Assembly: GCF_028069655.1 (NCBI RefSeq)
Contig: NZ_JAMCOS010000001.1
Location: forward strand, 4,556,001 to 4,620,000
Reading direction: 5' to 3'
Source: Acidovorax sp. NCPPB 4044
GTDB lineage: Bacteria > Pseudomonadota > Gammaproteobacteria > Burkholderiales > Burkholderiaceae_C
DNA length: 64,000 bases
The translations under genes were made by a program, and so were the position numbers. This document shows positions 9,316-21,182 of the stretch, piece after piece; position 1 is the stretch's first letter; every line of letters starts with the position of its first letter. The notes below the pieces were generated by a model. The model was not told the origin of the DNA, searched no databases, and saw only the letters and a list, made by a program, of their open reading frames with translations.

Positions 9316-12300
9316 TTAAGGGGCAAGGCGCATATCCCGGTGATCTGGACTGCGTGCTCTCCGCACCGGAGCGCCGCTTCAGTTCCGGCCAGTGCGCATA
9401 TCCCAGTGATCTAGACTTGCTGCTCTGCGCCCCCAGGCGGATGCGGGGTTCCGGCCAGTGCGCATATCCCAGTGGTCTAGACTCCTCGGCTGGCTTGTCC
9501 TTGCCGCACACCAGTTCCGGCCAGTGCGCATATCCCAGTGATCTAGACTGCGACCATTCCGCGGCCACTGGCCCGCCCAGTTCCGGCCAGTGCGCATATC
9601 CCAGTGATCTAGACTCATCGTGAGGTTGAACACGCAATCGCTCCCGTTCCGGCCAGTGCGCATATCCCAGTGATCTAGACTAGCGTCGTCGATGTAGGCG
9701 TCGACGATCATGTTCCGGCCAGTGCGCATATCCCAGTGATCTAGACTAATCGACGTGGACAGGCACACCGGATGCAGGTTCCGGCCAGTGCGCATATCCC
9801 AGTGATCTAGACTTGCTTTGGAGACGTTCCGTGCCTACCAGGGGTTCCGGCCAGTGCGCATATCCCAGTGATCTAGACTAAACCGTCCAGGGTGAAGCGG
9901 TTCGCAACGGTTCCGGCCAGTGCGCATATCCCAGTGATCTAGACTGCAAAAAGATCGCGGGAGAGCACTCGCCGCGTTCCGGCCAGTGCGCATATCCCAG
10001 TGATCTAGACTCTTCAACTTGAGACGGAGAAAATCGATGGAGTTCCGGCCAGTGCGCATATCCCAGTGATCTAGACTTTGTGGATCGCGTGGTTAATCCT
10101 TGGCGTCGTTCCGGCCAGTGCGCATATCCCAGTGATCTAGACTGCCCGGCCTGGACACCAAGCCGGTGGCGGAGTTCCGGCCAGTGCGCATATCCCAGTG
10201 ATCTAGACTAGACCTGGAGGATTGCCGGAGCGCCGGCTAGTTCCGGCCAGTGCGCATATCCCAGTGATCTAGACTGCCCCACTCCTCCGAATTGAGATCC
10301 ACCGCGTTCCGGCCAGTGCGCATATCCCAGTGATCTAGACTTGCGCCGTGCTTGTCCCAGCGCCCGGTAGCGTTCCGGCCAGTGCGCATATCCCAGTGAT
10401 CTAGACTGCTGGTCATTGCATCAAGCAGCGCCACGGGGTTCCGGCCAGTGCGCATATCCCAGTGATCTAGACTCCAGGGCCTCGCGAGCCATGCGACCGA
10501 TATGTTCCGGCCAGTGCGCATATCCCAGTGATCTAGACTCGCCAGGAGCGGCGGAAAGTAGGTCATCGTGTTCCGGCCAGTGCGCATATCCCAGTGATCT
10601 AGACTTCTCAATACAGCTACGCCTACATATCACGGGTTCCGGCCAGTGCGCATATCCCAGTGATCTAGACTTGGTATATCGATTGGTGGAAGAAGAAAAC
10701 GGTTCCGGCCAGTGCGCATATCCCAGTGATCTAGACTCCCAAAGCCCCCGGGCAGCAGCGCAGCGCAGTTCCGGCCAGTGCGCATATCCCAGTGATCTAG
10801 ACTCGCGTGAGGAACTGCTCAGGCCGGCGCGGAAGTTCCGGCCAGTGCGCATATCCCAGTGATCTAGACTCATGATGCCGTCCACGACCAGGCCGAACAG
10901 GTTCCGGCCAGTGCGCATATCCCAGTGATCTAGACTCGGTGCTCCAGATCGGCGGACACATCCACCGTTCCGGCCAGTGCGCATATCCCAGTGATCTAGA
11001 CTGTGCGGCCCCACCGCCGAAGCCACGCGCGCGTTCCGGCCAGTGCGCATATCCCAGTGATCTAGACTCAATGAAAAAGTACGTCACCGGACTGCGCCGT
11101 TCCGGCCAGTGCGCATATCCCAGTGATCTAGACTACGCTGCAATTTGCTCGGCGTTGATGACCTGTTCCGGCCAGTGCGCATATCCCAGTGATCTAGACT
11201 AACGCCCTTGTGCACTACATATCGGTCCACGTTCCGGCCAGTGCGCATATCCCAGTGATCTAGACTACCGATCCACGCAAGGCAATCTGCGCCACGGTTC
11301 CGGCCAGTGCGCATATCCCAGTGATCTAGACTGGCCACGTAAGCCACGACCTCATCGGCCGAGTTCCGGCCAGTGCGCATATCCCAGTGATCTAGACTTC
11401 GCCCTGATGGCGACGCTTTATCGTCCGGGTTCCGGCCAGTGCGCATATCCCAGTGATCTAGACTCAGCATGGGTAGCTCCATGAGTGGTACATTGTTCCG
11501 GCCAGTGCGCATATCCCAGTGATCTAGACTTCCAAGCGCGAATGAGGGCGGGGGGTTGCCGTTCCGGCCAGTGCGCATATCCCAGTGATCTAGACTCCAC
11601 AGGAGCCGGCGCAGGAGCACCAGCTTGTTCCGGCCAGTGCGCATATCCCAGTGATCTAGACTTAGGTCATAACGTGTTTGCGCAACTTCTGCGTTCCGGC
11701 CAGTGCGCATATCCCAGTGATCTAGACTGTCGCCGCCGTTCTGCTTGAGGCGAGCCCAGTTCCGGCCAGTGCGCATATCCCAGTGATCTAGACTTGACGG
11801 CGAGCTGATGACGCACCGCTGGTGGTTCCGGCCAGTGCGCATATCCCAGTGATCTAGACTCTTCGCGAATTTCAGCTCCACCTGGCGGAGGTTCCGGCCA
11901 GTGCGCATATCCCAGTGATCTAGACTCCGCCGCCCGCGCGGCACGCTGGCCAGCCAGTTCCGGCCAGTGCGCATATCCCAGTGATCTAGACTGGGGCCGC
12001 GGAACTGCACTGCCTTGGCGCCGTTCCGGCCAGTGCGCATATCCCAGTGATCTAGACTCCAGGGGGTTCGCGCCAGCTGCGCGCCCCTGTTCCGGCCAGT
12101 GCGCATATCCCAGTGATCTAGACTTTCATAGGCGTACACCTTGCCGTTGCGGTCGTTCCGGCCAGTGCGCATATCCCAGTGATCTAGACTCCAGTTCGAG
12201 CGCTGGAACCCGAGACAGGCGTTCCGGCCAGTGCGCATATCCCAGTGATCTAGACTCGTTAATTGGGTATACGCAGCATGGCTTACGTTCCGGCCAGTGC

Positions 12301-12585
12301 GCATATCCCAGTGATCTAGACTACAACCTGGGGATCGTGCGGCACCTGATCCGTTCCGGCCAGTGCGCATATCCCAGTGATCTAGACTGGCAGTCGGTTC
12401 CGCTGGAGCAAGCGCAGCGTTCCGGCCAGTGCGCATATCCCAGTGATCTAGACTGAAGGGGATGAGCTGCAGCATGAGCCGGATGTTCCGGCCAGTGCGC
12501 ATATCCCAGTGATCTAGACTGCAACAGCAATGCCCACCTGGGGCAGGTCGTTCCGGCCAGTGCGCATATCCCAGTGATCTAGACT
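9316..12585 (+). CRISPR. Type II-C CRISPR array: 50 repeats, 49 spacers
   Basis: The 36-base repeat starts GTTCCGGCCAGTGCGCAT and ends CCCAGTGATCTAGACT. Forty-nine full repeats start at 9382, 9448, 9514 and so on every 66 bases to 12550. All spacers are 30 bases except one of 31 (10804-10834) and one of 29 (12521-12549). A degenerate repeat (27 of 36 matches) occupies 9316-9351, and the repeat at 9448 has one substitution (GTGG for GTGA). The crRNA sense is the + strand, because only this strand pairs with the tracrRNA anti-repeat (16 contiguous bases) and an intrinsic + strand terminator follows the last repeat. The repeat ends in TAGACT, a -10-like hexamer at the place where Neisseria II-C repeats carry their internal promoter; this is suggestive only. 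The degenerate repeats are at the 5' end of the transcript and the cas genes flank the 3' end. Confidence 0.99.
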
Positions 12586-12656: not shown

Positions 12657-12983
12657 CTAGAAAAGATCGAACTGGTCTGGCGCTTTTTGCGCGGGCTGGC
12701 GTCGGTGTCCATGGAAAGAGATGGCCCGTTCGTACTGTTTGTCAGTGAACTGGAAGATATGCACTTTGCCTCCGGCCGGCAAGGCCTGCTCCACCTGCCG
12801 GCAGAGCGTGTCCACTTGGGTCTGGCTGGTGCAGAAGCGCAGGTAGACGCTGAACTGGCTCATCTGGAAGCCTACGTCCAGCAAGGCATTGCGAAAGCCC
12901 GTGGCGGCCTTGCGTTCGGCCTTGGTGATCACGGGCAGATCGAACATCACCACCATCCACATGAGTCGGTACCCCGTCAGCAT
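12657..12983 (-). CDS. cas2: CRISPR-associated endonuclease Cas2
   Basis: This 108-residue protein is the structural partner of Cas1 in the spacer-integration complex. The ferredoxin-like fold begins with MWMVVMFDLPVITKAERK, where the Asp of MVVMFDLP is the conserved metal-site residue. It continues with FRNALLDVGFQMSQFSVYLRF and closes with VHIFQFTDKQYE, the usual Cas2 pattern for type II systems. It is the last gene of the cas9-cas1-cas2 operon; 39 bases separate it from cas1. It ends 71 bases from the array's last repeat, the expected position for a II-C locus. Confidence 0.97.
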   Translation of the reverse strand: MLTGYRLMWMVVMFDLPVITKAERKAATGFRNALLDVGFQMSQFSVYLRFCTSQTQVDTLCRQVEQALPAGGKVHIFQFTDKQYERAISFHGHRRQPAQKAPDQFDLF

Positions 12984-13022: not shown

Positions 13023-13952
13023 TCAATCGGCATCGAGGCTACCCGCCAGCGAGAGCGGCAACCCGGGCAGGGGCAGGTCAAGCCGCAGCCGTTCCCCCAG
13101 GTACACCTGGGCCAGCGAAGTCGCCATGCGCTGCATGCAAACCATGACGGGCGTCACGCCCTGCAGGGTCTGCATATCGTCGTACAGCACACGCACCAAG
13201 GCGCGCTTGGTCTCGGGCGTGACGTGGGCCTCGCCCGCCCGGTGCAGTTGCCAGACTTTGAGGTCCACCACCGGGCGGAAGGGCTCCATCAGATCGTCTA
13301 CCAAGCGCATGGGGTTAGCGTCGTTGCTGTGGTGCAGGCCCAGGCTGGGATGCAGGCCGGCGGCCACCACGGCCCGCGCGGTGGCGGAGCGCAGCACGGT
13401 GTAGCCGTAGTTGAGCAGAGCATTCAGACCCTCGCCGTCCTGGTCGCGCCGGAACTCCGCGCCGAACAGTAGGCTCCAGTAGCGCCGTGCGCCCTGCCCT
13501 TCGATGTTCTCGGGGTCTCCGCTGCGCACTTTGCCCACCAGGGCCAGGAGCGGCGCCGTCGCGGCCCCCGCGGCCTCCAGCGCGGCGGCCTGCTGCTCCA
13601 GCTTGGCCTTGACCACGGTGGCCCAGAGCCGCTTGAGCAGCGGCAGGCCCGCAGTTAGTTGTGCCTCGATGCGCTTGGCCTGCACATGGTGGCCGTCGAT
13701 GGGCAGCAGCATGCCGACCGTATTGTGGTTGGCACCGCAGAGCACGAAGGGCGCACCGCGCTCGGCCAGGCACACCAGCAGATTGTTGGTGTAGCTCAGG
13801 CCATGGGCGTTGGCGATGACGGCCGCGATGTCGTCCAGGGGAATCTGGCCGAGTTCCTTGCGTTCGCCCTCGGTGTCACGCACGACGAGAAATCCCCGGT
13901 GTACGAAGAGATGCCGCCGGTCGTCCGCGATTTCGACGATGCGGCCGACCAT
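13023..13952 (-). CDS. cas1: CRISPR-associated integrase Cas1
   Basis: This 309-residue integrase inserts new spacers into the array together with Cas2. Active-site candidates are visible in family context: Glu151 in NIEGQGARRYW, His207/208 in PSLGLHHSN, and Glu223 in DDLMEPFRPVVD. The N-terminal beta domain (GRIVEIADDRRHLFVHRGF) and the FVLCGANHNTVG strand are typical of type II Cas1. It starts six bases after the cas9 stop, so it is translationally close to cas9. All adaptation genes of a minimal II-C set are present: there is no csn2 or cas4. Confidence 0.98.
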   Translation of the reverse strand: MVGRIVEIADDRRHLFVHRGFLVVRDTEGERKELGQIPLDDIAAVIANAHGLSYTNNLLVCLAERGAPFVLCGANHNTVGMLLPIDGHHVQAKRIEAQLTAGLPLLKRLWATVVKAKLEQQAAALEAAGAATAPLLALVGKVRSGDPENIEGQGARRYWSLLFGAEFRRDQDGEGLNALLNYGYTVLRSATARAVVAAGLHPSLGLHHSNDANPMRLVDDLMEPFRPVVDLKVWQLHRAGEAHVTPETKRALVRVLYDDMQTLQGVTPVMVCMQRMATSLAQVYLGERLRLDLPLPGLPLSLAGSLDAD

Positions 13953-13958
13953 GGTGCG

Positions 13959-16900
13959 TCAGCCCTTGAACCCCGGATCGCGCAACTCGCCGATGGGGGA
14001 GATGGTGACTTGGCGGGCCTTGGCTTTCTGGAAAGAGCCAGCCATCTTGGATACGTAGGCGAGCCCGCCTGATCTGTTGCGCGCATCAGTGTTCGCTTCG
14101 CACACGGGCGCCATGAAAACTTGGCCTGCAGCAGACATTCTGACGACACGTAAAGTCAACAATCCGCCCTCTGTCTCTAGCCGCACGCTATCCCCAATCA
14201 CCAGTCGCATGGCCAATGCCTTGCCGTTCTGACCTTGCGCCGGGTGCCGCAACTGCCGCTGTCCGCCTTCCCGCACGATGCGATACGCATCGAACGTGGA
14301 GATCACCTGCCCTTCCCACTTGCCCTTGTCGTTGACGGTGATCTCGATGCAGTAGTTGCTGCCGCCCACATAGCCTTTGTAAGGCAGCGGCCTGCCTTCG
14401 GCATCGACACCATGGCGCTGGGGCTGGCGGGGCTCGGCGATGCGGATCAGGTTGCTGATCTCGCGCCCGGCACTGCCGTCGGCCTTGCGGCGCTGCCGGA
14501 TGCTGCCGTCCCGCAGGACGCCATAGCTGGTTTCCTCCATCATGGCCCCCTCGTAGCCATGATCGGGCTTGTGGCTGACCCAGATGTGGCGCACGGCGCG
14601 CTCCACGTGGGCGCGGTAGGTAGGCCAGGGCAGCGGCATGGATTCGACCATGCGGGTCAGGCCGCCCTCGCGCGCCTGGGCGCTGGCCTGGGCGAAGCGC
14701 TGCATCAGCCGCTGATCGGTCACGCCGATCACGCAGGCATCTACCGCGTGGTGCCGGTGGTCGTTGCGGTTCTTCTCGCCATCCAGGCCCAGCACATCGT
14801 TCAGGCCGAACTTGCCGCGCAGCAGCGCCGTCATCTGGCCTGGAATCACGCGGGTGGCACTGCCAGGGCACACCAGCCGCAGATATTCCGCCGCCACGCG
14901 CGACAGGTAGCGCGTGTCGTTGAGCGCGCGGGCCAGGAAGTCCTTGTCTTCGCCCAGCCAGCGTTCGTAACCGTCGGGCGCGAAGCGGTAGCGCTTGCGC
15001 AGCGGCATGCGCTCTGCGCGTTGCAGGATGCCGTCATAGCTCCAGCCTTGGGCCTCGAAGTCGGCGTGGGCATCCCAGGGCGTGCGGTTGCGCTTGATGC
15101 GGTTGGCCTCGCGCAAGGCCACCGTGCGGTTGTTGAGGCTGTCGTCCAGCGTGGCCGAAAACGGCAGGATGTGTTCGATCTCCACGCGCTCGCCCAGCAG
15201 CATGTTTGCGCTGATCTGCATGCCGCTGTAGGGGCAGCGCCGGTCGGCGGCGTCGTGGCTCAGCTCTTCCCACAAGATCCATTTCTGGATGTCGAGCGTG
15301 CGCACTCGCTCCTCGCTGATGTGCCGCACTTCAGCGACGGAGCGGCGAATGCGCGCATTGCGGCGCTGGTTGTCCGCCTGCCGCTGCTGCGCTTCCTGCT
15401 TCTGCTCGCGGCTTTGCTTGAGATCGCGTGCCAGCTCGATCACTACTTCGGCCGGCCGGCCATAGCGGCGCATCAGCGCATTGACCACCATGCGCACCTG
15501 GTTCAGGCCGATGTGTACGGTGGGGTTGGCGATCTTGCCGTAGCGCTCTTCGTCGTTGCGCGGATTGTCCTTGGCAAACGCGACATGCCGCTGCAAGGCG
15601 CGGCCATAGTAGGGCAGTTGCTTGAACGCGAAGACCGGCTTGACCTCTCCGGTGGAGGCAATGACGCGCTCGCCGATGCGTTCCACTTCGTCCGCGCCGT
15701 GCTCGAAGCTGAAGCCCAGGTCGCTGTGGTGCGCGAAGCCGGCCGCCTGCACGGCCTTGTCGTAGGTGATGACGTCGCGCTGCAGCTCCGGCACGATGCG
15801 CGCCAGCGCCGTGCGGCCCAGGCTGCCGTAGCCTTCGGGCAGGCCTGCGTTGGCGATGGCCTGCGCCCGCATCTCGTCCACGCCCGTGTTTTCCTGCAGC
15901 CAGGCGATCAAGCGCGGCTCGCTTTCCTCGGTCATCAGCTGCGTGACGATCTCGTCCTGCAGCGTGGTGTCGAACCCGGCCCAGAGCGGGCCGAACAAGT
16001 CCTTTTTGCCCAGCGCCGCCGCGGTGGCATTGCCCTTGAGGCCGTCGCGCTTGGCGTCTTCCAGGTTGAAGAGGGCCGAAAAGCCCAGCGCCTTGCGCAT
16101 GGCGGTGAAGGTCACCTTGGCATGCTTCTCCAACAGCGCCACGATCTGATCGCGTTGCGCCAGGGTCAGCGCCTCTTCGCGCAACTCGTCATGCAGCACG
16201 CGGAGGTGATTCACTTCCTGATAGATGCGGAAGCGCTGCGTGCTAGGCAACGCCAGCAAGGCGCGCGGCTCCTCGGGCACCAGCGTGCAGCGGCCGGGCT
16301 GCACGGGCCGCAGCTTGCGCTGGTGCAGCAGGATGTCGCGCAGTTCGTCGCGGGCCGCCTCGTTGAACAGCACGGGGTTGAAGGCCGCCTGCGCGGCCCA
16401 CAGTGCGTCAAATTCCTGCGCCACCATGGCACGGTCCACGTACAGGTCGTAGCGCTTGTCGATGCGCGGCTTGCCTTCGTCGTTGGTGTAGCGGTTTTCG
16501 CGGTAGCGGGCTCGCACGCCCTGGTTTTTCACCCCCTCGGGCTTGCGCTCCATGCGCACCTTCCAGAACCACTCGCCCACAGTGCGGCAGCCGGATTCGT
16601 GCATCTGCGCCCGCAGCGTGCCGATGGCCTGCTTGAGCGCACCGCTGTCGCTGTCCTTGCGGTCGGTCTTGCGGTTGCTCTGGAAGCCGCGGCGCTGGTT
16701 CAGATGGAAAAGGGCGCGGCCGAATTCCTCGGGCTTCAGCGCGGTTTCCAATCCGCTGGCGCGCAACGCATAGGGATTCAGCTTCTCCAGCGCCTTGCGG
16801 GTCGCCTCTTCCTGCGGGAAAAAGCCATGCCGCTCCAGTGCGGCCAGCATACGGGCCTTGCGCTTCAAAAGGCGGTCCCGCCGACGTCGCATGGCGCGGG

Positions 16901-17087
16901 CCGCGCGGCGGGTGACGGCCAGGGAGGACCCGTCCTTGGGGTTGCGGCCATCGCTGAAAATGCGCACGCCAGCCTTGATGATGGCGGATGGATCGCCCTC
17001 CGCATCCAATCGGAAAACGGCCCAGCCCAGCGAAGTGGAGCCCAGGTCCAACGCCAGGCGATACGCCAGCGGCTTGTCTTTCTTCAT
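13959..17087 (-). CDS. cas9: Cas9 endonuclease, subtype II-C
   Basis: Cas9 has 1042 residues, close to Neisseria Cas9 (1082) and well below the ~1370 of II-A proteins. RuvC-I is LALDLGSTSLGWAVF with catalytic Asp14. The Arg-rich bridge helix spans about 60-80 (RRAARAMRRRRDRLLKRKAR). RuvC-II has Glu551 in EVVIELARDLK. The HNH domain starts at CPYSG (618) and has VEIEHILPFS with His639 and Asn662 in EANRIKRN. RuvC-III is NDHRHHAVDAC (775-785). All catalytic residues are present, so double-strand cleavage is expected; the PAM cannot be read. The ATG at 17087 has an AGAGGGGG ribosome site and follows a sigma-70 promoter that overlaps the divergent tracrRNA promoter. Confidence 0.99.
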   Translation of the reverse strand: MKKDKPLAYRLALDLGSTSLGWAVFRLDAEGDPSAIIKAGVRIFSDGRNPKDGSSLAVTRRAARAMRRRRDRLLKRKARMLAALERHGFFPQEEATRKALEKLNPYALRASGLETALKPEEFGRALFHLNQRRGFQSNRKTDRKDSDSGALKQAIGTLRAQMHESGCRTVGEWFWKVRMERKPEGVKNQGVRARYRENRYTNDEGKPRIDKRYDLYVDRAMVAQEFDALWAAQAAFNPVLFNEAARDELRDILLHQRKLRPVQPGRCTLVPEEPRALLALPSTQRFRIYQEVNHLRVLHDELREEALTLAQRDQIVALLEKHAKVTFTAMRKALGFSALFNLEDAKRDGLKGNATAAALGKKDLFGPLWAGFDTTLQDEIVTQLMTEESEPRLIAWLQENTGVDEMRAQAIANAGLPEGYGSLGRTALARIVPELQRDVITYDKAVQAAGFAHHSDLGFSFEHGADEVERIGERVIASTGEVKPVFAFKQLPYYGRALQRHVAFAKDNPRNDEERYGKIANPTVHIGLNQVRMVVNALMRRYGRPAEVVIELARDLKQSREQKQEAQQRQADNQRRNARIRRSVAEVRHISEERVRTLDIQKWILWEELSHDAADRRCPYSGMQISANMLLGERVEIEHILPFSATLDDSLNNRTVALREANRIKRNRTPWDAHADFEAQGWSYDGILQRAERMPLRKRYRFAPDGYERWLGEDKDFLARALNDTRYLSRVAAEYLRLVCPGSATRVIPGQMTALLRGKFGLNDVLGLDGEKNRNDHRHHAVDACVIGVTDQRLMQRFAQASAQAREGGLTRMVESMPLPWPTYRAHVERAVRHIWVSHKPDHGYEGAMMEETSYGVLRDGSIRQRRKADGSAGREISNLIRIAEPRQPQRHGVDAEGRPLPYKGYVGGSNYCIEITVNDKGKWEGQVISTFDAYRIVREGGQRQLRHPAQGQNGKALAMRLVIGDSVRLETEGGLLTLRVVRMSAAGQVFMAPVCEANTDARNRSGGLAYVSKMAGSFQKAKARQVTISPIGELRDPGFKG

Positions 17088-17146: not shown

Positions 17147-17237
17147 CACTCAGTTCACTGGGATATGCGCTCTGGACGCTAACAAGCTGAAAGATGCACC
17201 AAATGGAAGGCCCCGCAAGCGGGGCCTTCGTCTTTTC
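17147..17237 (+). ncRNA. tracrRNA
   Basis: The anti-repeat (17155-17183) pairs with the CRISPR repeat. TCACTGGGATATGCGC is a perfect 16-base complement, then CTGG pairs with CCAG and AAC with the repeat's leading GTT, leaving an internal loop of CCGG (crRNA) against ACGCT (tracrRNA). The 3' part has a short linker (AAGCTGAAAGATGC) and ends in a strong terminator hairpin (AGGCCCCGC / GCGGGGCCT) followed by TTCGTCTTTT. The 5' end is inferred from the promoter at 17112-17140. It would guide RNase III processing and form the Cas9 scaffold. It is divergent from cas9. Confidence 0.93.
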
Positions 17238-17279: not shown

Positions 17280-17969
17280 TCACCAATGCAAGGGTTTGCT
17301 TGCCGGCTTCTTCTTGGTTGTGACATGTTGCGGCAACTGTGATTGCGCCAGTTCGTCGTCCCGGATGTGATGGCGCACCCAGTGCGCCAGTGGTGTGAGC
17401 CGTTTGTTAGGCACCTTGCCATCCCCTGTGTCCTTGTCGCGCAACGGCATGACCAGCCCTATCCTCGCGTCCGGTACATCTTCGCGGATCATCTTCAATG
17501 CGGGTTCCAGATCGCTGTCGTTTGAGCAGATCACCAATTGGTCGTATGCGCCACGCACAGCATCGCGGTAGGCGTGCAGCGCAATATTCACGTCGGTCTG
17601 TTTCTCTTCGATCATCCAAACCCGCGAAACCTTGTCCTTGGAAGGACCGGCACCTTCCTGATAGCTCGGCAGGGAGGCAGGTCCGAAGATATGAAAGCCG
17701 TTGATGACGTGGACGAGGCCAGGATGGCGTGACTGAATGGCACGCAAATACTGGGTCTGTGCCTGCGATGACGCTTCGGCGTGCCGGGCGTAGTTTGCTT
17801 TGACGGGGGCGGTGAAGTATTTGATCGATATGACCGTCGCACTGGGGTCTTGCGGCAACAGGATGCGATCACGGAAAAGCGCCGCGATGTCCAGCCATTT
17901 GTACGGCGTGCCCTTGAGGCGGGAGTAGTAGAGGTTATAGCCGTCGATATAGACAGAGATTCTTGTCAA
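17280..17969 (-). CDS. NYN-domain (PIN-like) putative ribonuclease
   Basis: This protein has 229 residues from a TTG start at 17969, chosen because GGGGGGAG lies about seven bases ahead and the NYN core begins at once (RISVYIDGYNLYYSRLKG). Acidic residues typical of the NYN/PIN metal site are visible: Asp in YIDGYN, the KQTDVNIAL motif, and the strand LVICSNDSDLEPAL. Such domains are Mg-dependent RNases. The Lys-rich tail (TTKKKPASKP) could bind RNA. It sits between the two tracrRNA-tail copies, on the strand opposite to both, and its GC is lower than that of the flanking genes. A link with CRISPR function is inference from position only. A terminator-like hairpin lies in its leader. Confidence 0.85.
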   Translation of the reverse strand: MTRISVYIDGYNLYYSRLKGTPYKWLDIAALFRDRILLPQDPSATVISIKYFTAPVKANYARHAEASSQAQTQYLRAIQSRHPGLVHVINGFHIFGPASLPSYQEGAGPSKDKVSRVWMIEEKQTDVNIALHAYRDAVRGAYDQLVICSNDSDLEPALKMIREDVPDARIGLVMPLRDKDTGDGKVPNKRLTPLAHWVRHHIRDDELAQSQLPQHVTTKKKPASKPLHW

Positions 17970-17988
17970 TACACTCTCCCCCCAAGTG

Positions 17989-18014
17989 AAAAGGCCACCT
18001 TGCGGTGGCCTTTT
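17989..18014. terminator. Bidirectional terminator or leader attenuator
   Basis: An 11-bp perfect inverted repeat (AAAAGGCCACC / GGTGGCCTTTT) with a four-base loop gives a T-run on both strands. It could stop metH transcripts coming from the right. It also lies only 20 bases ahead of the NYN start codon, leaving no room for a promoter between the two. Confidence 0.8.
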
Positions 18015-18142
18015 CGCCCTAAGCCAAGCCAATTGAATGACACGGCGAAGGGATTGTGGGCCTGATTGTAGCAGGGCGAATTTGCGCGATTGTACGGCAG
18101 GCCGGGGTGGTCTGTGGAGGTAGAAATTAATTTACACTCTCA

Positions 18143-18257
18143 TTCGTGTTGACCATGTGTGGAGGTGTTCCGGTAGCGGGAGCTTGCATCCTGCTGACGC
18201 TAACAAGCTGAAAGATGCACCAAATGGAAGGCCCCGCATGCGGGGCCTTCGTCTTTT
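18143..18257 (+). ncRNA. Putative natural single-guide RNA (tracrRNA-tail paralogue with fused repeat handle)
   Basis: Bases 18196-18257 repeat tracrRNA 17175-17236 with one difference in 62, including the terminator hairpin and T-run. No anti-repeat precedes it. Instead, 18167-18173 is GTTCCGG, identical to the start of the CRISPR repeat, joined by an 8-bp stem (TAGCGGGA / TCCTGCTG, two G-T pairs) and a seven-base loop to GACGCTAAC. GTT pairs with AAC, and the internal loop is CCGG against ACGCT, the same as in the crRNA:tracrRNA duplex. A -10-like TACACT (18133-18138) would start the RNA near 18144, giving a 5' guide of about 21-24 bases ending at 18166. The -35 is poor. Expression and Cas9 loading are inferred; it could be a relic or serve only as a terminator. 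Confidence 0.6.
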
Positions 18258-21001: not shown

Positions 21002-21134
21002 GGGGCTCACCTGCGCGGACGGTGGGGTTACAGGTGAGCGTCGTTCGGGGGCTTCTCGCACCTTCCGAGCCTGACGGCGCGCCCGCGGCCGTCGAGGCCG
21101 ACGGCGCCGGGCGGACCGCTGCAACGCTCCTCGG
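21002..21134 (-). promoter_or_regulatory. SAH riboswitch controlling metH
   Basis: Read on the - strand, it has the conserved CCGAGGAGCGTTGCAGCGG (21134-21116), CAGGCTCGG (21073-21065) closing the CCGAG/CTCGG stem, and AACGACGCTCACC (21045-21033), whose CGCTC can pair with GAGCG as the known pseudoknot. Downstream, GCTCACCTG (21039-21031) is also perfectly complementary to CAGGTGAGC (21013-21005), which holds the metH ribosome site. SAH binding should capture the CGCTC strand and free the site, giving an ON switch when S-adenosylhomocysteine builds up. Confidence 0.9.
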
Positions 21135-21182
21135 AAGGCCGGGCGGATTTTAGAACGGGTTGGGGCGTTCCGAGGGGCGGGC

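Follow-up and report, generated by a model that had tools for sequence, protein, structure and literature searches.

Judged from its sequence, the element at positions 18143–18257 of the 64,000-nucleotide stretch of Acidovorax DNA analysed here (the window) is very likely a stand-alone gene for a natural single-guide RNA (sgRNA). The finding is carried by the layout of the element, by the fact that three species have kept it, and by a copy of the guide's seed that lies 45 nt upstream and mirrors the changes in the seed. On balance, we favour a reading in which the RNA probably loads Cas9 and is predicted to block its own promoter without cutting it.

Genomic setting of the element

The locus runs in the order array, cas2, cas1, cas9, tracrRNA, NYN gene, sgRNA-like element, metH, with the following components:

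9316–12585, plus strand: CRISPR array of 50 repeats (the first degenerate) and 49 spacers
12657–12983, minus strand: cas2
13023–13952, minus strand: cas1 (type II/NMENI)
13959–17087, minus strand: cas9, 1042 aa, HNH and RuvC domains matched
17152–17236, plus strand: genuine tracrRNA, consisting of anti-repeat (17152–17178) and tail
17280–17969, minus strand: NYN-domain gene (PF01936; PADLOC HEC-09) with a predicted TTG start, oriented divergently to the sgRNA gene
17988–18058, minus strand: leader RNA of the NYN gene, conserved and structured, with a terminator-like hairpin at 17988–18015 and a predicted 5′ end
18143–18257, plus strand: sgRNA-like element, between the NYN gene and metH
from 18263, minus strand: metH

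The system is of type II-C, with cas9, cas1 and cas2 as its sole cas genes and a small Cas9 (1042 aa). Judged by spacing, a fourth cas gene such as csn2 or cas4 has no room here, since array, cas2, cas1, cas9 and tracrRNA leave no space between them. Cas9 is also full-length in the other two genomes that carry the element (G006 and G014; the window's own genome is G000). Upstream of metH lies an SAH riboswitch (window 21029–21138, minus strand, Rfam RF01057).

Architecture of the sgRNA-like gene

The element and its predicted promoter region comprise the following parts, all on the plus strand:

18113–18121: candidate target TGTGGAGGT, a 9-nt match to the seed, 45 nt upstream of it
18122–18128: PAM-side flank AGAAATT of the candidate target
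18133–18138: predicted -10 box TACACT (TATAAT in G006, TATACT in G014)
18146–18166: predicted 21-nt guide, with its seed TGTGGAGGT at 18158–18166
18167–18173: GTTCCGG, the initial seven bases of the CRISPR repeat, 7/7 identical across the three species
18174–18196: closed hairpin in place of the remaining repeat:anti-repeat
18197–18257: tracrRNA 3′ half, with the nexus side ACGCTAAC, tail and terminator (18227–18250)

Guide, repeat-derived 5′ strand and tracr tail are thus laid out together, and their transcription as a single RNA is predicted. The initial annotation had described a separate tracrRNA-like gene, about 1 kb from the real one, whose 62 bases at 18196–18257 match the tracrRNA 3′ half at 61 positions. 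Comparison of the two copies agrees: a 62-base repeat (17175–17236 and 18196–18257) is 61/62 identical, its copies 1021 bases apart. The anti-repeat, present in the genuine tracrRNA at 17152–17178, is absent from 18143–18257 and is replaced, again as annotated, by GTTCCGG and a closed 8-bp hairpin. In this hairpin, TAGCGGGA (18174–18181) pairs with TCCTGCTG (18189–18196) through eight pairs, two of them G–U, around the loop GCTTGCA. The strand then returns to ACGCTAAC, which allows GTT to face AAC (18202–18204), as in the crRNA:tracrRNA duplex, and places CCGG opposite ACGCT (18197–18201), so that the internal loop of that duplex can form here too, as annotated.

From the position of the -10-like TACACT, the RNA is predicted to start near 18146, which gives a guide of 21 nt; the initial annotation had noted room for 21–24 nt, which is also the guide length given overall for the element. 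A generic promoter scan does not have the TACACT promoter among its predictions, and a clear -35 box is absent.

Folding, taken alone, is weak support for the sgRNA layout. The proportion of shuffled sequences that are predicted to fold at least as well is 0.11 for G000, 0.10 for G014 and 0.03 for G006. The proposed GTT:AAC pairing can form, and occurs in the predicted fold of the whole G000 RNA, but it is missing from the unforced minimum fold of the 38–40-nt pieces from all three genomes, and forcing it costs 0.6 (G000), 1.4 (G014) and 3.5 (G006) kcal/mol. The hairpin closes in each genome, but the predicted free fold of G006 and G014 prefers another pairing register, without GTT:AAC.

Conservation and occurrence

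A 115-base query finds matches in 24 of 149 relatives (own genome included), and head and tail are both present in three: G000 itself, G014 (93%) and G006 (85%). The whole unit thus recurs in two of 16 same-genus genomes. An exact pattern scan of genome contigs returned two records, the metagenome-assembled genome Acidovorax S3C53_SP339 and Acidovorax sp. SUPP3334 (the window's own record was possibly omitted), which are the same two genomes as found among the relatives. In all three carriers, the element sits between the NYN gene and metH. Between the species, the segment from nexus to terminator is identical at 58–59 of 59 positions, while the hairpin keeps 9–16 of 22–23, yet closes in each. 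Conservation of the pairing in related strains had been set beforehand as a sequence-level check, and it came out in favour: GTTCCGG and CGCTAAC are both kept in the two other species despite the divergence of the hairpin. This conservation is that of a narrow set of three related genomes.

Elsewhere, tail-like matches occur in 29 of 399 family genomes, with two copies in two of them (G000 and G006; two candidates scored per genome), and in 11 of 399 order genomes, with two copies in the own genome only. We inspected 41 tail-match loci by eye (L004–L024 and L170–L189; L213–L220 of the order-genome scan lie outside this set). A nexus motif is nearby in 31 and an anti-repeat is present in 30 of those 31, and GTTCCGG is found in none of the 41. 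At the one remaining nexus locus, L184 (G439), the tracr-like tail is preceded by a degenerate anti-repeat region. No viral contig was found to contain the unit. These scans of relatives, family and order, with the inspection of loci, suggest that the unit is rare and confined to one genus as far as searched. A broader pattern, GTTC...GCTAACAAGC, matches 51 of 399 family genomes and was set aside, as its controls (unsummed) suggest that many of these matches arise by chance.

The tracrRNA tail itself adjoins the end of metH in G008, G009 and G012, and in the three carriers it is the sgRNA tail that does so. The NYN gene and the sgRNA head are hence flanked by 62-base direct repeats, an arrangement that suggests either that the unit was acquired when the tail was duplicated or that it was lost where the two tails recombined.

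The seed and its upstream copy

The nine bases that precede GTTCCGG are TGTGGAGGT in G000, TGCGAAGGT in G006 and TGCGGAGGT in G014, and in each genome they are repeated 45 nt upstream. This copy lies in the predicted promoter of the gene itself and covers the stretch from -35 to -10. Two positions vary between the species, and both copies change identically; base 10 is mismatched at the upstream site in all three genomes. A random 9-mer would recur within 121 nt upstream with a chance of 0.0011–0.0015 per genome. When pairs of initially identical copies evolve on a star tree, all three stay identical with a probability of 8e-5 to 0.0095, and do so with at least two mirrored changes with a probability of 7e-6 to 4e-5, based on 2 to 12 events among 300,000 runs. 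This simulation is a rough guide, since its star tree is an assumption, the events are few and any selection acting on the promoter is left out, and the mirrored changes amount to two substitutions across three related genomes.

The search for guide or seed sites proposed in the initial annotation gave, for the seed, the 9-base match at the own predicted promoter; for the 21-nt guide, no other site within three mismatches was found in the own genome. Nor was there any further match of the seed's last 7, 8 or 9 nt on either strand of the 6.0, 8.0 and 8.0 kb searched in the three genomes. The seed combined with N4RT, a PAM derived from nine spacers and since superseded by a larger protospacer set, gives 4, 4 and 2 hits genome-wide, a yield not above that of reversed-pattern controls (6, 5 and 12), and the own-promoter site is the sole one common to the three genomes. 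The remaining hits (3, 3 and 1) were rejected as targets in trans: they lie inside long stop-to-stop frames, at places that do not correspond. When their flanks were compared by blastn, a single pair had a segment in common, of 579 bp, and neither hit site falls within it. The promoter of cas9 or the tracrRNA was likewise rejected as a target, as the last 7–9 nt of the seed have no match between the two genes in any of the three genomes.

Partial fit of the inferred PAM at the candidate self-target

To infer a PAM, spacers from the window, G008 and G014 arrays were compared with phages and plasmids; window spacers were also compared with 120 relatives, and those of G008, G006 and 15 of the 25 from G014 with 40. 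At three mismatches or fewer, 23 spacers have a protospacer (15 window, 6 G008, 2 G014), and none was found for the nine G006 spacers in the 40 relatives searched. Only fetched loci were aligned, with one flank per spacer taken from the first of its best matches. The PAM was inferred from 22 protospacers overall, the window set of 14 leaving out one spacer that matches its own chromosome. Within this set, base 2 is G in 11, base 3 is C in 13, base 6 is T or C in all 14 and base 7 is G in 11. One window spacer matches its own chromosome (G000:C1:1129627-1129657) at 30/30, next to a flank, TGGTCGC, that is unfit for the inferred PAM, and a G008 spacer matches the G008 chromosome at 29/29 (L142, G008:C1:2023867-2023902). 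L068 number 38, one of the eight G008/G014 spacers, may have no true protospacer, since it matches a stretch found in many relatives as well as in G008.

The flanks of the candidate self-target (AGAAATT in G000 and G006, GGAGATT in G014) fit the inferred PAM at bases 2 (G) and 6 (T) and misfit at bases 3 (A) and 7 (T). An A at base 3 occurs in none of the 23 flanks tabulated and is seen among weaker matches that were left out (25/29, for example). Under the window matrix the flanks score 3.3 (G000), 2.4 (G006) and 1.6 (G014) bits, and leave-one-out scores of known flanks range from -5.7 to 7.1. Among window octamers these scores fall at percentiles 97.4, 95.8 and 93.9, respectively; the high G and C content of the window favours A/T-rich octamers that carry T at base 6. 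With the small matrix from G008 and G014 (eight flanks), the percentiles are 85.1 (G000), 42.6 (G006) and 91.5 (G014). PAMs may differ between relatives, since the C-terminal parts of Cas9 in G006, G008, G009, G012 and G014 are 83–89% identical to the window's. The inferred PAMs seem unlike despite the same repeat: approximately NRCNNYG in the window and more NCGNNT-like for G008 and G014, the latter from eight spacers only. The PAM result is compatible with the self-target reading, does not confirm it, and is its main weakness.

Proposed mechanism and alternative explanations

In the mechanism we favour, a transcript would start near 18146 and load Cas9 without tracrRNA or RNase III, and the Cas9–sgRNA complex would bind 18113–18128, between the -35 and -10 regions of its own promoter. 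The promoter would be repressed and not cut, since a 9-bp match is too short for cutting, and the outcome would be negative feedback on the sgRNA promoter. The level of sgRNA would then track the Cas9 that it can occupy, so that the gene could gauge or restrain Cas9 while limiting itself. Self-repression alone does not account for the purpose of such a gene, and this counts against the explanation.

An alternative that we hold to be unlikely gives the complex a gene to guard: Cas9–sgRNA would hold down the divergent NYN gene with its leader, and loss or inhibition of Cas9 would release the nuclease, as in CreTA. The candidate target sits in the region that separates the two divergent genes, and the start predicted for NYN transcription is about 55–70 bp downstream of it; on the minus strand, a promoter-like pair (18118–18089) has its -35 on the seed copy, with one such pair found and 0.6 expected in shuffles; and the NYN gene, whose protein matches the candidate defence family HEC-09 of PADLOC, is at this place in all three sgRNA genomes. 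Relatives of the NYN protein, at 35–57% identity, also occur in six viral contigs. Its leader has a CCCY...RGGG stem and a terminator-like hairpin, with 23 predicted pairs, five of them showing compensated changes across 11 sequences from seven genera; it matches no Rfam family, the only hit being isrD at E 0.42. We take the order of RNA, terminator and nuclease gene at this locus to resemble that of type III toxin-antitoxin systems. Against a guarding role, the NYN gene and leader also occur without CRISPR, both in other genera and beside metH in G013, a genome in which the search gave no tracrRNA match, so NYN control needs no sgRNA. The distal minus-strand promoter-like pair loses its spacing in G014, as judged by eye. 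Moreover, tail-like tracr matches (29) and the NYN gene (18) are found together in only four of the 399 family genomes, being adjacent in G000 and G006 and on separate contigs in the drafts G043 and G426.

Also rather unlikely is a type II guard circuit, in which Cas9 and a gene-encoded single guide would close the divergent sgRNA/NYN control region. In such a circuit, Cas9 that was lost or inhibited would open the region, releasing a second defence when the first fails. The NYN gene, which also occurs in G013 and other genomes that lack the sgRNA unit, is a possible second target of the sgRNA.

The two 9-mers could instead be operators of a DNA-binding repressor, with the sgRNA-like RNA acting as a Cas9 decoy or on some other target. 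They do form direct repeats that flank the predicted start site, and the motif beside the upstream copy is an imperfect PAM. We nevertheless consider this quite improbable: in all three species the end of one copy coincides with the junction of guide and repeat, and the copies are the same within a genome but differ between genomes, unlike degenerate operators.

It is very unlikely that the element is a decayed tracrRNA duplicate, kept as the terminator of metH or by conversion from the genuine tracrRNA. The near-identical tail is what such a duplicate would have, and it adjoins metH at the position that the tracrRNA tail occupies in relatives lacking the cassette. Two other species, however, keep the element in the same place with GTTCCGG intact and a closing hairpin; conversion could not supply GTTCCGG, since the tracrRNA does not contain it; and the parallel changes of seed and upstream copy, like the conserved GTTCCGG beside a diverged hairpin, are left unexplained. 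Decay and reuse as a metH terminator, both raised in the initial annotation, have accordingly lost ground, the latter also because a terminator needs no guide, GTTCCGG or nexus. That the element is a fixed immune guide directed at foreign DNA is extremely improbable, for all that length and layout suit a working guide. The three species largely share the guide, as inheritance would predict, and 80% coverage of the 30 bases 18137–18166 is reached by no phage or plasmid record (among the matches listed, 10 of 20 and 10 of 45 records, there are only partial ones with E of 2 or more).

Comparison with known systems

Natural sgRNAs as such are already known. In the open-access papers searched we found neither an Acidovorax case nor a separate II-C gene with a truncated repeat:anti-repeat and a seed for its own promoter. 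If the favoured reading is true, evolution built the layout of engineered sgRNAs as a separate type II-C gene, with a short hairpin replacing the anti-repeat; Cas9 would repress transcription under its own regulation in a system other than type II-A; and the scaffold would offer this Cas9 a compact sgRNA shaped by natural selection. The comparisons below draw on extracts of the cited papers.

CreTA, a CRISPR-guarded toxin-antitoxin of type I, has a guide that partially matches an adjacent promoter (PMC9458426). The likeness lies in such a match beside a possibly toxic gene, here a candidate; CreTA uses Cascade, whereas the enzyme here would be Cas9, with NYN control only a candidate. In Listeria monocytogenes (II-A), an sgRNA-like RNA that resembles the crRNA:tracrRNA duplex was predicted in silico (PMC6199352); it differs in type, and the extract describes neither a target nor a co-varying seed.

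Two small CRISPR-associated RNAs (scaRNAs) are also comparable. That of Francisella novicida (II-B) combines a degenerate repeat with a partial match and directs Cas9-dependent transcriptional repression (PMC8730458, PMC9458426). It pairs with tracrRNA, whereas the element here brings its own tail and only 7 nt of repeat, a piece too short for the tracrRNA pairing by which a Francisella-type scaRNA is recognised. The scaRNA of Neisseria meningitidis, a stand-alone small RNA of a II-C system like the present one, is likened to an sgRNA by its authors and binds Nme1Cas9 in vitro without tracrRNA (PMC13431127). Its reported action is on efeO mRNA, and the extract does not describe a copied tracr tail or a seed for its own promoter (PMC13431127).

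The closest known system is tracr-L, a long-form tracrRNA from the type II-A systems of Streptococcus (PMC11417352; PMC8730458), in which a 9-bp match silences the cas promoter (PMC8730458). As described in these extracts, tracr-L likewise unites a guide, a repeat-like part and a tracr tail within a single RNA and represses through a short promoter match. It is the tracrRNA gene in a longer form, whereas here the RNA would come from a second gene, 1021 bases from the tracrRNA, which has a predicted promoter of its own, lies in a II-C system and lacks the anti-repeat. And unlike tracr-L, which represses the cas promoter, the element has as its only shared target candidate the promoter from which its own RNA is predicted to be made.
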